Assembly (NCBI GenBank): GCA_018819925.1
Contig: JAHJPG010000010.1
Location: 1 to 64,000 of the forward strand
Direction of reading: 5' to 3'
Source: Pseudomonadota bacterium
GTDB taxonomy: Bacteria > Desulfobacterota > Desulfarculia > Desulfarculales > Desulfarculaceae
DNA: 64,000 nt
Position 1 is the first letter of the stretch; each line of letters begins with the position of its first letter. A program made the position numbers and the translations under genes. Below the pieces are notes generated by a model. It searched no databases. It saw only the letters and a list, made by a program, of their open reading frames with translations, and had not been told where the DNA came from. Below, in pieces: positions 4,101-49,243 of the stretch.

Positions 4101-5198
4101 TCAAATCGCCATCTGAGCTATATCGTGTGCCACTCTTTGCGAGGTATTGCCATCCCATAATTTTGGGCACGCGCCTGTATCCCAGTTTCCGTCTAATACT
4201 TTTTGGATGTCAATTTCAAGTTGATCGAAATTAGTCAGCTTGTTAGAGCCTTCTCTTACTGTGATTGGGCGTTCAGTGTTGTTTCGCATTGTAAGACAAG
4301 GGATCCCAAGAAAAGTGGTTTCCTCTTGCAGCCCTCCGGAGTCGGTGATGACCAAGCGACAGCCAAAGGCTAGACTCATGAACTCCATGTATGGCAATGG
4401 TTCCAAGAGAGTTATAAATTGGCATGAAGCTAATTTACCCCACAGGTTGAATTGCTTCAGGTGGTGCTTGGTTCGTGGGTGGACTGGGAATACAAGGGGA
4501 AGCATGTGCGCTGAACTTATCAGAATGTCAACAATGCGTTCCAGTCTGGTGAAATGGTCTACATTGGAAGGGCGGTGTAAAGTGAGCAATCCGTATCCCC
4601 GACATGACAAACCTAAGGTTTGCCAATGTTGCATATTTTCGATCTTGTCTTTGAGCATGACCACCGAATCGATCATAATGTTACCAACCCGACTGATTCG
4701 AGCGGGATCGATTCCTTCACGTATGAGATTATCATCCGCTTCCGGCGAATGTGTCCACAATAAATCTGATATTTGGTCAGTTAACAAACGATTAATTTCT
4801 TCAGGCATTGACCAGTCAAAACTTCTTAGACCTGCCTCTAAGTGAGCCACCTTGATATTAAGCTTTCGTGCAGCCAAGGCACAAGCCACCGTGGCGTTAA
4901 CATCTCCCGCCACAACAACACAAGCAGGAGGGGCGGCTAGTAACACCTTTTCGTATTCGATTAGGCACTTGCCAGTCTGCGCTCCATGCGTGCCAGACCC
5001 TACGCCAAGATGCACATAAGGATCTGGTAATTTGAGATCATTTAGAAAGGATTGGGACATATTAAAATCATAGTGCTGCCCGGCATGTACAAAACGCACT
5101 TCAAAATTATCATGTTTGATCAGCTCGTGAAATAGCGGAGCTATCTTCATAAAATTAGGCCTTGCTGCAGCGACCAAATCAACTTTAATTTTATTCAT
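4101..5198 (-). CDS. Second UDP-N-acetylglucosamine 2-epimerase family protein
   Basis: The product has 365 residues of the non-hydrolysing UDP-GlcNAc 2-epimerase family. Visible motifs are ARPNFMK near 12-18, HAGQHYD near 37, GDVNAT, HLEAGLRS, PEEINR, LHRPSN, HPRTK and TDSGGLQEE. The usual GDTNST motif reads GDVNAT here and GARPQ reads AARPN, so it is diverged from the paralogue at 490-1569. It probably makes a ManNAc-type UDP-sugar for the surface polysaccharide. The gene is visibly AT-richer than the rest of the window, as are its flanks (3841-4100 and 5199-5403 show no convincing gene), which suggests later acquisition. No clear Shine-Dalgarno sequence precedes the ATG. Confidence 0.88.
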   Translation of the reverse strand: MNKIKVDLVAAARPNFMKIAPLFHELIKHDNFEVRFVHAGQHYDFNMSQSFLNDLKLPDPYVHLGVGSGTHGAQTGKCLIEYEKVLLAAPPACVVVAGDVNATVACALAARKLNIKVAHLEAGLRSFDWSMPEEINRLLTDQISDLLWTHSPEADDNLIREGIDPARISRVGNIMIDSVVMLKDKIENMQHWQTLGLSCRGYGLLTLHRPSNVDHFTRLERIVDILISSAHMLPLVFPVHPRTKHHLKQFNLWGKLASCQFITLLEPLPYMEFMSLAFGCRLVITDSGGLQEETTFLGIPCLTMRNNTERPITVREGSNKLTNFDQLEIDIQKVLDGNWDTGACPKLWDGNTSQRVAHDIAQMAI

Positions 5199-5403
5199 GG
5201 AGTAGCGTTCCGTGGATTGGTGTACATTGGTTTGCCAAGAGGCAGTATATTAAAATTGGTCAAAAATACCAACAAATAATTATTATAATTTTACGTTAAT
5301 GTGATTATAACTTATTAGTATTTATAGGCATCATTCTCGCAATCATGGAAAGGACCCAATGCCATATAGTAATAAATAATTATGCTTATATGCGCATCGC
5401 AAC

Positions 5404-6726
5404 TCAATAAATGCCCAACTTATTTAAGGCAGCTTTAGCCTTTTTGTCATGTGGGTTCAAATCCAGGGCCCGCTGGATTTCCTGGACCGCTGCTTCATAT
5501 TGTTTGTCCTTGGCATAGGCCAAACCCAAGTATACATGGTATTCAGGTAAATTTGGAGAGAGAGCCACGGCCTGTCCGTAAGCCCTGATGGCTTCCTTTG
5601 GTCGTCCAGCCCCTAGAAGGCAATCACCAAGATTGATGAAAGCATTGGGGGCGGTGGGGTCGGCTACAATGGCCGCCCTTAGGATCTCGAGAGCCATTTC
5701 AACCTGTCCCGCCTGACGGGCGGCCGAGGCCAGGAAAAGCATTTCCTCAGGAGAGAACCTGGCATGCATTTGGGCTTGGCTGATTACCGCTACTACCTCC
5801 AGTCCGGTGAAAATCTTTTTTTGCCTAAGCATGGTGCGCACCAGCTCCTGCCAAGCCTTGGGGTCCGAAGGGGAGATGGAGAGATATTCCCGCAGAACAT
5901 CCTCGCTGGCCCTGGGCAAGTTGGCCAATTCCAAGCCACGGGCCAGGGCCTTGTATTTGTCCAAGCCTACGGCCTTTTCCTTAAGATCCCGTGAAATTAG
6001 CTTGGAGGCTGCCGTCCACCCCTCTGCTCCCAGATTTTTGAATAAGCCCAGGCCCATAAGCCGCCACTGCGTGTCCGTTTCTGGTTTAAGGAGGCGGGCC
6101 TGAGCATAGTCCGTAGCCAGGCCAAGGCATCTGGTATAGGCCTGGGCTTCGGCCTTTCGGTACCAGGAATTATACCGTAGGGTCGGGCGCATCAGATGGA
6201 GGGCCTGGCCGTATTGGCGGCACAAGCTTTCGATCTGTTCGATTTGGGCCAGGGGTGTCCTGGTGGCTTGATCATAAAGAAGATCTGCATAGCGGTAATG
6301 CGCGTAGCCATAGGTGGGATTTCTTTGCAAAACAGCTCGATAAAGTGGTTGGCAAGGTTCTGCCCCCCCTGCGAGGGGCGTGTTTTTTTGGCGGACAGCG
6401 CACTGATTGGCGAGGTTGAGCAGGGGCACCTCCCACGATGGAGCCAAGATGCTAGCCTGATACAGGCTCAATTCCACAACTCTATCGCGCCTCTCGGGAG
6501 AAAGAGTGGAGGCGGGAGCCAGGGCCAATCTAGCCCTTTGGTCCCAATAAAAGGCATTGGCGGGGTTGAGAAGCAAGGCGACGTTAAGCCGCCCCCATCG
6601 CTGGTGGAATTGCTGGGCTATGGACCCCGGTGCAGGGGGGCTTTTGGCTGCGAACAGCGACCCCCCAGACCAAGCGGCTGCCAGCAGGATGGCCAAGACC
6701 AGCAGTATGCCTAGCAGATGTCGCAT
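5404..6726 (-). CDS. Membrane-anchored TPR protein of the exopolysaccharide locus
   Basis: This 440-residue protein starts with a hydrophobic signal or anchor (residues 3-21, LLGILLVLAILLAAAW). The body is alpha-helical, and its last third is clear tetratricopeptide repeats, for example NAFINLGDCLLGAGRPKEAIRAY and PEYHVYLGLAYAKDKQYEAAV. TPR proteins of this layout are common in Wza/Wzc-type and PEP-CTERM-associated exopolysaccharide operons, where they are thought to scaffold periplasmic assembly. It begins 3 bp after the stop codon of the Wzc-like gene, so it belongs to that operon. A precise function cannot be given from sequence. Confidence 0.8.
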   Translation of the reverse strand: MRHLLGILLVLAILLAAAWSGGSLFAAKSPPAPGSIAQQFHQRWGRLNVALLLNPANAFYWDQRARLALAPASTLSPERRDRVVELSLYQASILAPSWEVPLLNLANQCAVRQKNTPLAGGAEPCQPLYRAVLQRNPTYGYAHYRYADLLYDQATRTPLAQIEQIESLCRQYGQALHLMRPTLRYNSWYRKAEAQAYTRCLGLATDYAQARLLKPETDTQWRLMGLGLFKNLGAEGWTAASKLISRDLKEKAVGLDKYKALARGLELANLPRASEDVLREYLSISPSDPKAWQELVRTMLRQKKIFTGLEVVAVISQAQMHARFSPEEMLFLASAARQAGQVEMALEILRAAIVADPTAPNAFINLGDCLLGAGRPKEAIRAYGQAVALSPNLPEYHVYLGLAYAKDKQYEAAVQEIQRALDLNPHDKKAKAALNKLGIY

Positions 6727-16121: not shown

Positions 16122-17762
16122 ATGAATCAAGACGCGAACCAGGTTTCCATAAGCCCCGAGGGCGAGGCTTTTCCCCTTCCGGGCGAGGCTGAATACCAGG
16201 CCGAAAATAGCCGCTTGGCCGAACTGGTGGCCCAGCAGCGTCAAATGGGCCGCGAGATCGTGGTGGTCATGGGCGTGGGCTTCGTGGGGGCGGTGATGGC
16301 GGCGGTGGTGGCCGACAGCGTGGACCCGGACGGCCAGCCGGGCAAGTTCGTCATCGGCATGCAGCGCCCCAGCACCCGCAGCTTTTGGAAGATCCCCATG
16401 CTCAACCGGGGCCAATCACCGGTCAAGGCCGAGGACCCCGAGGTGGATCTGACCATCGCGCGCTGCGTAAACGACAAGAAGACCCTCACCGCCACCTTTT
16501 CCTACGAGGCCCTGACCCACGCCGACGTGGTGGTGGTGGACGTGCAGTGCGACTATTCCAAGCAGGCCCTGGCCGATGTGATCCAGGGCAGCGTGGAAAT
16601 GGCCGCCCTTGAGGAAAGCCTCAAGATCATAAGCGAAAAGGTGCCGGCGCAGTGCCTGGTCTTGATAGAGACCACTGTGCCCCCGGGCACCACCGAATAC
16701 GTGGCCCATCCCATCATGGCCAAGGCCTTCGCCCAGCGGGGCATAACCAGCGAGCCGCTTTTGGCCCACAGCTTCGAGCGGGTGATGCCCGGCCGCGAAT
16801 ACGTGAAGAGCATCCGCGACTTTTGGCGGGTGTGCGCCGGGATCAACCCCGAGAGCCGGGACCGGGTGGAGAAGTTCCTCTCCGAGGTGCTAAACGTGGC
16901 CGAGTTCCCGCTAACCGTGCTGGATAGGCCCATGGAGAGCGAAACCACCAAGATCGTGGAGAACAGCTTCCGGGCCTCCATCCTGGCCTTCATGGACGAA
17001 TGGAGCACCTTCGCCGAGACTAACGGGGTGGATATAATCAAGGTGATAAACGCCATCCGCATGCGGCCCACCCACAACAACCTGATGTTTCCCGGCCCGG
17101 GCATCGGCGGCTATTGCCTGCCCAAGGACGGCGGCCTGGGGGTGTGGGCCTACCATCACCTCATGGGCTTCCAGCAGCCGCTTTTCAAGATCACCCCCAT
17201 GGCCATCGACATCAACGACAGCCGCGCCCTGCGCGCCGCCGAATTGGTGCGCGACGCCCTGCGCAACATGGGCACCCTGGTGCCCAACAGCCGCATAGTG
17301 GTCTTGGGCGCGGCCTACCGCGAGGACGTGGGCGACACCCGCTACTCGGGCAGCGAGCTGGTGGTCAGGCGTTTGGCCGAGATGGGGGCCGACCTGGCGG
17401 TGCACGACCCCTACGTGCTCACCTGGTGGGAGTTCGCCAAGCAGGACGAGTACCCCGCCACCAGCGCCGGAAGGGCCCGCTTCTTCCGCAACCAGGAGGG
17501 GCTCAAGGACCTGGCGGTGAGCCAGGACCTTTCCGCCGTCCTGTCCGGGGCCGACGCGGTGGTGCTTTGCGTGCGCCACGCCCAATATTTGGAGCTGGAC
17601 CCCGACTGGGTGGTGGAGGCCTGCGGCGGCCCGGTGGCCGTGGTGGACTGCTTCGCCCTGTTGGACGACGAGCGCATCCGCCGCTATATCGAGCTGGGCT
17701 GCGAGGTGAAGGGCCTGGGGCGCGGACATATTAAACGTATCAAGGACGAGGTGCGGGGCTAG
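16122..17762 (+). CDS. UDP-glucose/GDP-mannose dehydrogenase family (UDP-HexNAc 6-dehydrogenase, WbpA/WbpO-like)
   Basis: The product has 546 residues, about 100 longer than usual because of a roughly 45-residue N-terminal extension and an insertion after the Rossmann motif. Visible motifs are the NAD-binding GVGFVG, ETTVPPGTTEY, the substrate-binding FERVMPGREY, ESETTKIVENSFRA, the catalytic cysteine in GGYCLPKD, and the C-terminal VLGAAYREDVGDTRYSGS domain. The family oxidises the C6 hydroxyl of a UDP-sugar to a uronate in two NAD-dependent steps. It would feed the dehydrogenase/acetyltransferase fusion at 1583-3184 with UDP-GlcNAcA. AAGGAG lies about 10 nt before the ATG. A TPR membrane protein follows 34 bp later and probably shares the transcript. 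Confidence 0.9.
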   Translation: MNQDANQVSISPEGEAFPLPGEAEYQAENSRLAELVAQQRQMGREIVVVMGVGFVGAVMAAVVADSVDPDGQPGKFVIGMQRPSTRSFWKIPMLNRGQSPVKAEDPEVDLTIARCVNDKKTLTATFSYEALTHADVVVVDVQCDYSKQALADVIQGSVEMAALEESLKIISEKVPAQCLVLIETTVPPGTTEYVAHPIMAKAFAQRGITSEPLLAHSFERVMPGREYVKSIRDFWRVCAGINPESRDRVEKFLSEVLNVAEFPLTVLDRPMESETTKIVENSFRASILAFMDEWSTFAETNGVDIIKVINAIRMRPTHNNLMFPGPGIGGYCLPKDGGLGVWAYHHLMGFQQPLFKITPMAIDINDSRALRAAELVRDALRNMGTLVPNSRIVVLGAAYREDVGDTRYSGSELVVRRLAEMGADLAVHDPYVLTWWEFAKQDEYPATSAGRARFFRNQEGLKDLAVSQDLSAVLSGADAVVLCVRHAQYLELDPDWVVEACGGPVAVVDCFALLDDERIRRYIELGCEVKGLGRGHIKRIKDEVRG

Positions 17763-47856: not shown

Positions 47857-47885
47857 TTGCAAGCATCGGCTTTTGGAGATATGAT
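47857..47885 (+). promoter_or_regulatory. Sigma-70 promoter of the DAHP synthase leader
   Basis: TTGCAA (47857-47862), a 17-nt spacer and TATGAT (47880-47885) put the transcription start near 47892, about 34 bp before the leader-peptide ATG. Spacing is optimal and each hexamer is close to consensus (5/6 each). Confidence 0.7.
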
Positions 47886-47925
47886 TTAAATGTATACAGA
47901 CTCATGATAACGCGGCGGATGAAAC

Positions 47926-48063
47926 ATGAACCACCAGCGGGGACAATTTAAGAGCCAGGATGCCACGGCCGGCGTGCTCCCCCGCAGCGCCGCGTTTTTC
48001 TATTTTTATTATTACGCCCCCGCCACCGAGACGGTGAGCTTGCCAGGAGTGCGTAAGGTCTAG
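47926..48063 (+). CDS. Phe/Tyr-rich leader peptide of the DAHP synthase gene
   Basis: This is a 45-codon frame from ATG 47926 to TAG at 48061-48063. Codons 24-30 (47995-48015) read Phe-Phe-Tyr-Phe-Tyr-Tyr-Tyr, an unbroken run of seven aromatic codons, in a genome where such runs are rare. It is followed by APATET and a short tail. The run sits just before the competing hairpins at 48022-48124, and the whole lies just upstream of a DAHP synthase. That is the arrangement of pheA/aroF-type attenuation leaders, where slow translation of Phe/Tyr codons signals shortage of charged tRNA. The ribosome binding site before the ATG is weak, and a GTG at 47974 is an alternative shorter start. The frame was worked out base by base. 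Confidence 0.75.
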   Translation: MNHQRGQFKSQDATAGVLPRSAAFFYFYYYAPATETVSLPGVRKV

Positions 48064-48124
48064 CATCTAAAACTCTCCCAAAGCACCACAGCCCACCGTC
48101 TTCGGACGGTGGGCTTTTTTGTTT
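48022..48124 (+). promoter_or_regulatory. Transcription attenuator upstream of DAHP synthase
   Basis: Segment 1 (48024-48028, CACCG) pairs with segment 2 (48032-48036, CGGTG). Segment 2 in its longer form (48030-48040) can instead pair with segment 3 (48090-48100) with one mismatch in 11. Segment 3 pairs perfectly with segment 4 (48105-48115) in an 11-bp UUCG-capped terminator followed by T6 (48115-48120). The aromatic codons lie 9 nt before segment 1, so a stalled ribosome would cover it and favour the 2:3 antiterminator. Without stalling, 1:2 and 3:4 form and transcription stops 50 bp before the DAHP synthase ATG. Confidence 0.78.
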
Positions 48125-48172
48125 GGCTGAAAACAGCCGGGCCCCAGGCGGCCATGAACAAGGAAATGGAAA

Positions 48173-49243
48173 ATGATCATTCAACTGAAGGCGAGCGCGG
48201 GAAAAAGCGGATTGGAAAAGGTCGTGTCCCATCTGGCCAAGGACGGGGTGCCCCGCCAGCGGCTGGACATTTTTTCCGGCGACACCTACAACCTGGTGGG
48301 CATCAAGGGCGACGCCAGCAAGCTGGATCTGGGCAAGTACCAGGCCCTGGACTACGTGTTCACGGTGCATCGCATCTCCGATCCCTTCAAGGAGCTATCG
48401 CGCCAGTTCCATCCCGACGACACCCTGGTTGAACTGCGTAACGGGCATTGCGTGGGCCGGGACCTGAGCATCATCGCCGGGCCCTGCGCCATCGAGAGCC
48501 GGGAGCAGTTGTTCAAGACCGCCGAAATGGTGGCCAGAGCCGGAGCCAACATCCTCCGGGGCGGTGCCTTCAAGCCCCGCACCATCCATCGCAGCTTTCA
48601 GGGCCTGGGCGAGGATGGCCTAAAGCTGCTGGCCGAGGTGCGCGAGGCGGTCGGCCTGCCCGTGGTCTCCGAGATAATGGACGCCCGCGACATCCCCCTG
48701 TTCGTGGACTACGACATCGACATATGGCAGGTGGGGGCGCGCAACTGCCTCAACTACACTTTCCTCGACGCTCTGAGCCAGGTGCCCAACCCCAAGCCGA
48801 TCCTGCTCAAGCGCGGCGACCACGTGTCGGTCAGCGAGCTGCTGGGCGCGGCGTTGAGGCTCTACGAGGGCAACCAGCAGGTGATCCTCTGCGAGCGGGG
48901 CGACAAGACCGCGGACAAGGTGCACCGCAACGTGCTCAACCTGAACAACGTCTCCTACCTTAAGCACCACTACCACCTGCCGGTGATCGTGGACCCCAGC
49001 CACGGCACCGGCGTCCGGGAGCTGGTGGTGGATCTGGGCATGGCCGGCCTGGCCGCCGGCGCGGACGGCTTGATGGTGGAGGTCCACTACCAGCCGGAAC
49101 ATGCCCTGTGCGATGGGGCTCAGAGCCTTAACCATGAGTTCGGCTCCATGGTGCCCCTGGCCTCCACCATCTTCCAGGCGCGTAGCGGGCTGGGCGCGGC
49201 CCAGGCGGCCGAGTGCAGCGTATTGGCGGCCACGGCTCGTTAG
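48173..49243 (+). CDS. aroF: 3-deoxy-7-phosphoheptulonate (DAHP) synthase, type I-beta with N-terminal regulatory domain
   Basis: The product has 356 residues. An N-terminal ferredoxin-like regulatory domain (about 1-70, [31 protein letters not shown]) is fused to a KDO8P/DAHP synthase barrel: [70 protein letters not shown]. Metal ligands Cys (GPCAIES), His (SHGTG) and Glu are visible. It condenses phosphoenolpyruvate and erythrose 4-phosphate, the first step to aromatic amino acids. In Thermotoga-type enzymes the N-terminal domain gives Tyr/Phe feedback. Here the upstream attenuator adds transcriptional control by the same amino acids. The gene is followed by a strong hairpin. Confidence 0.96.

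Follow-up and report, generated by a model that had tools for sequence, protein, structure and literature searches.

A predicted, mainly tyrosine-sensing attenuator of a DAHP synthase gene in the Desulfarculaceae, probably re-coded from the trpE attenuator

In the window, i.e. the whole stretch of 64,000 nucleotides that was analyzed, a DAHP synthase gene is very likely to be controlled by a ribosome-dependent attenuator of the trp/pheA kind, which would sense mainly charged tRNA-Tyr and would have arisen from a duplicated and re-coded trpE attenuator. This reading was obtained from sequence comparison and RNA folding. The mechanism is a classical one, and the re-coded trp attenuator is its most interesting aspect. 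The features involved are listed in Table 1; the promoter, the leader of 45 codons with FFYFYYY at codons 24-30, the three helices and the T6 tract were each recovered at the coordinates that a preliminary description of this DNA had assigned to them.

Table 1. Features of the aro leader and of the gene behind it (window coordinates).
Feature	Position	Strand	Basis
Sigma-70-like promoter TTGCAA-17-TATGAT	47857..47885	+	Promoter scan; similar hexamers here in most congeneric orthologues
Palindrome TGTATACA at expected transcription start, possible operator	47891..47898	+	Related TTGTATACAA sites in aro and trp promoters of relatives
Shine-Dalgarno-like GGCGGA, weak, 5' of leader start	47914..47919	+	Inferred
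Leader peptide ORF MNHQRGQFKSQDATAGVLPRSAAFFYFYYYAPATETVSLPGVRKV, 45 codons	47926..48063	+	Start codon and frame kept in 7/7 congeneric genomes
Regulatory codons 24-30, FFYFYYY, putative Tyr-dominated sensor	47995..48015	+	Codon reading
1:2 anti-antiterminator hairpin	48022..48039 (core CACCG-AGA-CGGTG, 48024-48036)	+	Folding; helix search in relatives
Segment 2, GACGGTGAGCT, near copy of segment 4	48030..48040	+	Sequence; folding; pair comparison
Segment 3, AGCCCACCGTC, partner of segment 2 (antiterminator) or segment 4 (terminator)	48090..48100	+	Folding; pair comparison
Segment 4, GACGGTGGGCT, and T tract of intrinsic terminator	48105..48120	+	Terminator scan; folding
Type I-beta DAHP synthase, N-terminal ferredoxin-like domain, 356 aa, predicted regulated gene	48173..49243	+	PF00793, PF18152; 1rzm

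The enzyme had already been described as type I-beta, in agreement with the Pfam domains detected (DAHP_synth_1 and the ferredoxin-like domain). Its nearest solved relatives were the Thermotoga maritima DAHP synthase 1rzm (E 1.5e-73), 3pg9, and 4grs, a construct carrying the regulatory domain of the T. maritima enzyme. The gene stands alone. The host belongs to the family Desulfarculaceae, as judged from its named relatives, and has a genome of 4.03 Mb; its earlier labelling as a sulfate reducer is plausible in view of this family and of a dsrA match above the curated cut-off.

The promoter was the sole match of the promoter scan, with 0.2 expected in shuffled sequences. The regulatory codons read TTT TTC TAT TTT TAT TAT TAC. 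Segments 2 and 3 pair with a single A.C mismatch, whereas the terminator helix (3:4, 48090-48115) is perfect, with 11 pairs, and runs into the T tract at 48115-48120. Taken singly, the helices had free energies of -6.1 (1:2), -12.7 (2:3) and -23.1 kcal/mol (3:4), and the fold of the whole leader was beaten by just one of 200 shuffles (z -2.65). The mismatch (48037 against 48093) is kept in all seven aro leaders known from the genus, and most trp leaders have a mismatch at the equivalent pair; it may adjust how readily the antiterminator forms relative to the terminator.

With ample Tyr, the ribosome would pass the FFYFYYY run, 1:2 would re-form behind it, 3:4 would follow and transcription would stop near position 48120. 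When Tyr is short, the ribosome would come to a halt at the final Tyr codons, its front edge covering segment 1; 2:3 would then pair, the terminator would be blocked and DAHP synthase would be made. We infer leader translation, stalling and the Tyr response. The RNA was folded with a ribosome in place, an approach already named in the preliminary description. Placing the ribosome's edge on the final Tyr codon removed 1:2, and 2:3 was the minimum-energy fold when only segment 3 had been made, while with the ribosome at the stop codon segment 2 refolded on segment 1 and the terminator formed. The short leader ORF with its run of end-product codons and the terminator between leader and gene are those of this class of attenuator, and in the model a ribosome stalled on codon 30 prevents 1:2.

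The 1:2, 2:3 and 3:4 alternatives, with regulatory codons adjoining segment 1, are also those of trpL and pheL of E. coli, which differ in having Trp or Phe codons and other target genes. The leader stop of E. coli trpL sits between segments 1 and 2. In contrast, the stop of the aro leader lies past segment 2, by 20 nt in five genomes including this one and by 2-3 nt in G006, and directly behind it in G010.

Orthologues of the DAHP synthase gene were found in seven congeneric genomes including this one (81-100% identity); an eighth congener lacks it. These orthologues support the interpretation of the region as an attenuator. The preliminary description had named a lack of the aromatic run or terminator before orthologues as contrary evidence; instead, the leader with its run, the terminator and segments 2 to 4 were all present at the equivalent place in each of the seven. 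All three helices were recovered in the seven leaders, with 43-52 nt between segments 2 and 3. As previously proposed, 2:3 and 3:4 are mutually exclusive, since segment 3 is common to both in every aro leader; segment 2 is likewise common to 1:2 and 2:3. No such leader was present before three orthologues found outside the genus but within the family (68-74% identity), and among the genomes compared the element occurs in one genus only.

The 1:2 hairpin is kept despite base differences (CACCG/CGGTG here, CCGTC/GACGG in G007 and G008). Segments 2 and 3 are nearly invariant, and covariation analysis was silent among the seven aro leaders because these segments hardly vary; when trp leaders were added, two double-change pairs each appeared in 2:3 and 3:4, a weak signal given the little variation. 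Differences between the seven leader frames showed no third-position excess, and therefore no sign of selection on the peptide outside the run.

The run had been described as a mixture of Phe and Tyr. This holds for FFYFYYY, which is found in three genomes, but overstates Phe, because the run is Tyr-dominated across the relatives (YLYSYYY, YLYYYYY, FGYYYYY and FYYYYFY in the other four). The final codon, which precedes a conserved Ala and is nearest to segment 1, is Tyr in all seven leaders, and Phe is absent from two, so that Tyr rather than an even Phe/Tyr mix is most likely the conserved sensor. Stalling was modelled simply, with an assumed ribosome footprint of 15 nt; 1:2 was broken solely by a ribosome halted at codon 30, perhaps 29, and survived one halted at codon 28, in keeping with the invariance of the final Tyr.

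Alternatively, the same attenuator might respond to Phe no less than to Tyr, or to the charging of aromatic tRNAs as a whole, with Phe shortage as the natural signal. Three of the seven runs do contain three Phe codons, and the aroR leader of Corynebacterium glutamicum, located before the DAHP synthase gene aroF and carrying Phe-Tyr-Phe, shows a response to Phe but none to Tyr (PMC4046766, PMC11802643). Both leaders are ribosome attenuators with mixed Phe/Tyr codons and a DAHP synthase downstream, but the likeness is one of description, and they differ in their runs, in phylum and in the Phe response of C. glutamicum; on the basis of the conserved Tyr codons, the opposite response is predicted for the aro leader. 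Phe sensing of this extent is rather unlikely in view of the two runs without Phe, the invariant final Tyr and the footprint model, in which the last Tyr codon is decisive.

The combination of features is more than would be expected by chance. A scanner for a short ORF with six of nine residues Phe, Tyr or Trp, followed by an intrinsic terminator, had exactly one match on both strands of the window, the aro leader. Applied to 1500 stretches drawn at random from the fetched loci, it had 33 matches, of which the 14 listed were all genuine trp or DAHP synthase leaders. The 4.03-Mb genome has five separate matches to a Phe/Tyr pattern of six codons, and two of these are DAHP synthase leaders. Phe/Tyr runs at G000:C74 and G006:C213 were rejected as leaders, being inside long ORFs, as were those at G004:C1:1013572, G009:C14 and G009:C24, which have no leader anatomy.

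The trpE leader of this genome (L077, about 5189-5410) ends in ...GGWLYWWRSPMTVRSAGEKPT and has a 9-bp terminator stem identical to that of the aro leader. In six of the seven congeners having the gene, the stem pattern CCCACCGTC-N-GACGGTGGG was found at just two places, the aro and trp leaders, and the seventh (G010) has variants of it; the congener that lacks the gene had a single copy, and the pattern also turned up in two other genera. A reversed control pattern had no occurrence in 20 genomes. With a profile made from congeneric trp leaders alone, the aro leader was the best match in the window (E 2.5e-11); it remained the best, though a weak one, when the terminator was left out (E 0.02-0.17).

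The two leaders align from segment 2 through the T tract. No pairing is assigned in the attenuator model to the linker that joins segments 2 and 3, and its likeness in the aro and trp leaders exceeded that of all 500 permutations. Both leaders have TV, eight further codons (in most members) and TAG, placing their stop codons alike. They differ in that the trpE leader has Trp codons (WLYWW) and controls trpE. Unlike the aro leader, the trp leader extends to other genera, which makes duplication and Trp-to-Tyr re-coding the most economical explanation. An older trp attenuator was thus probably duplicated in the ancestor of the genus and re-coded from Trp to Tyr/Phe. The direction of duplication is one that we infer from the distribution of the two leaders, and gene conversion is conceivable as another origin of their likeness.

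Control might also be exerted mainly at initiation, by a repressor on the TGTATACA palindrome, with the leader as a relic of the trp attenuator. Sites matching TTGTATACAA, exactly or nearly, recur at the aro and trp promoters of relatives, and the only exact YTGTATACAR of this genome precedes trpD. However, G004 has only a degraded palindrome and G008 has lost it, although both keep the attenuator, and other copies of the palindrome lie near unrelated genes, making this explanation improbable as the main control. The two kinds of control are compatible, and TTGTATACAA may be an operator. Such matches were located in the control regions of aro (window 47891-47898), trpE and trpD (L077:5207-5216 and 16907-16916) of the genus. 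A role of the TGTATACA palindrome as an operator specific to aromatic genes was rejected, as copies were found near genes for a purB-like lyase, a methyltransferase and a recombinase.

Intrinsic terminators do close small transcription units, but it is highly improbable that this one belongs to an independent gene for a small RNA or small protein, leaving DAHP synthase to its own promoter or to constant read-through, given that the promoter scan, in a search for the downstream start that the preliminary description had named as contrary evidence, found no promoter-like site between terminator and gene, that segments 2 and 4 are near copies of each other, at a fixed distance, in all relatives, and that aromatic codons precede an aromatic-pathway gene in each congener.

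The tyrosine attenuator proposed here has partial precedents. A list of predictions from 2005 has attenuators in front of aromatic operons (PMC1173090, Table 7); Desulfovibrio vulgaris contributes one of them, and some of the operons include a type I-beta DAHP synthase. An 'attenuator sensing tyr-tRNA' was predicted for Shewanella aroF in 2009 (PMC2659441, Table 3). As far as these tables go, the predictions share attenuation of aromatic genes with the present case, once with Tyr sensing, and concern other genes and organisms; the tables give no leader run or comparative anatomy for those operons. No papers on attenuators in Desulfovibrio, Geobacter or the delta-proteobacteria were found in the openly licensed literature. 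No leader or T-box family of Rfam matched at its gathering score; such families were not among the weak matches at the aro leader locus, nor were any found at the trp and aro leaders of relatives that were searched. The earlier suggestion of a new case is thus tenable for the particular element, which is described neither in Rfam nor in the openly licensed literature searched, while older subscription surveys of attenuators may hold related predictions; it does not extend to the kind of control, for which precedents exist (PMC4046766, PMC11802643, PMC1173090).

The trp leader of this genome is followed by trpE, a trpG-like gene, a DAHP synthase gene, an EPSP synthase gene, a shikimate kinase/dehydroquinate synthase fusion and further genes. 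Later in this cluster a second leader, VFFYFYYFTAVCP, precedes another DAHP synthase gene, pheA and tyrA. Leaders of this type, rich in Phe and Tyr and with a terminator (L077:13700-13980 here, and its counterparts in the phylum), were found in nearly all genomes of the class having a pheA-linked DAHP synthase gene. Of 42 loci sampled from the phylum's other classes, at least 24 had a leader before the pheA-linked gene, often with Trp besides Phe/Tyr (e.g. NLGWWFYFYYWGGVCP, RYYGYSFYYFWFNRGGPP). Tyr-rich leaders such as SYYYFYYYFTFSR, with terminators, were also observed before DAHP synthase genes of Lachnospiraceae, other Clostridia and a contig labelled Sutterella (L010, L011, L012, L015, L016, L018, L026, L021, L025, L022). 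The occurrence of Phe/Tyr leaders across the class, the phylum and the Clostridia indicates that this kind of control is common.

The three E. coli DAHP synthase isoenzymes are controlled by repressors. On balance it seems likely, with appreciable doubt, that in this genus a trp attenuator was copied and re-coded to become Tyr-specific, so that three DAHP synthases would stand behind Trp, Phe/Tyr and Tyr leaders in place of repressors of the E. coli type. The aro leader would then be a natural case of an attenuator that switched the amino acid sensed while retaining its RNA switch, which can be tested by swapping a few codons. Taken together, the leaders suggest that aromatic synthesis in Desulfobacterota, the regulation of which has been little studied, is largely run by leader peptides. 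Being conserved, they offer a handy route to annotating DAHP synthase isoenzymes by the amino acid to which they answer.

Two further loci were observed. The gap between tyrA and trpD (L077:16900-17260, contig C93) holds tandem Trp leaders, MFNTAWRYWWRNWNRSGPPAPGR and MNIERHTFQGVYGWRWWRFTKRESVLP, each with its own terminator. The first is kept in several congeners, with a related form in G005 and G013, and the second is also present in G006 and G009; such serial attenuators before trpD look unusual. At L267:2108-2240, and likewise in L265, a leader (MTARQFQRAYRFFYFSGYIGALMG in L267) and a terminator lie behind a TTGTATACAA site and before a gene of the metallo-beta-lactamase fold. This predicted Phe/Tyr attenuator thus stands in front of a gene without a known aromatic role.
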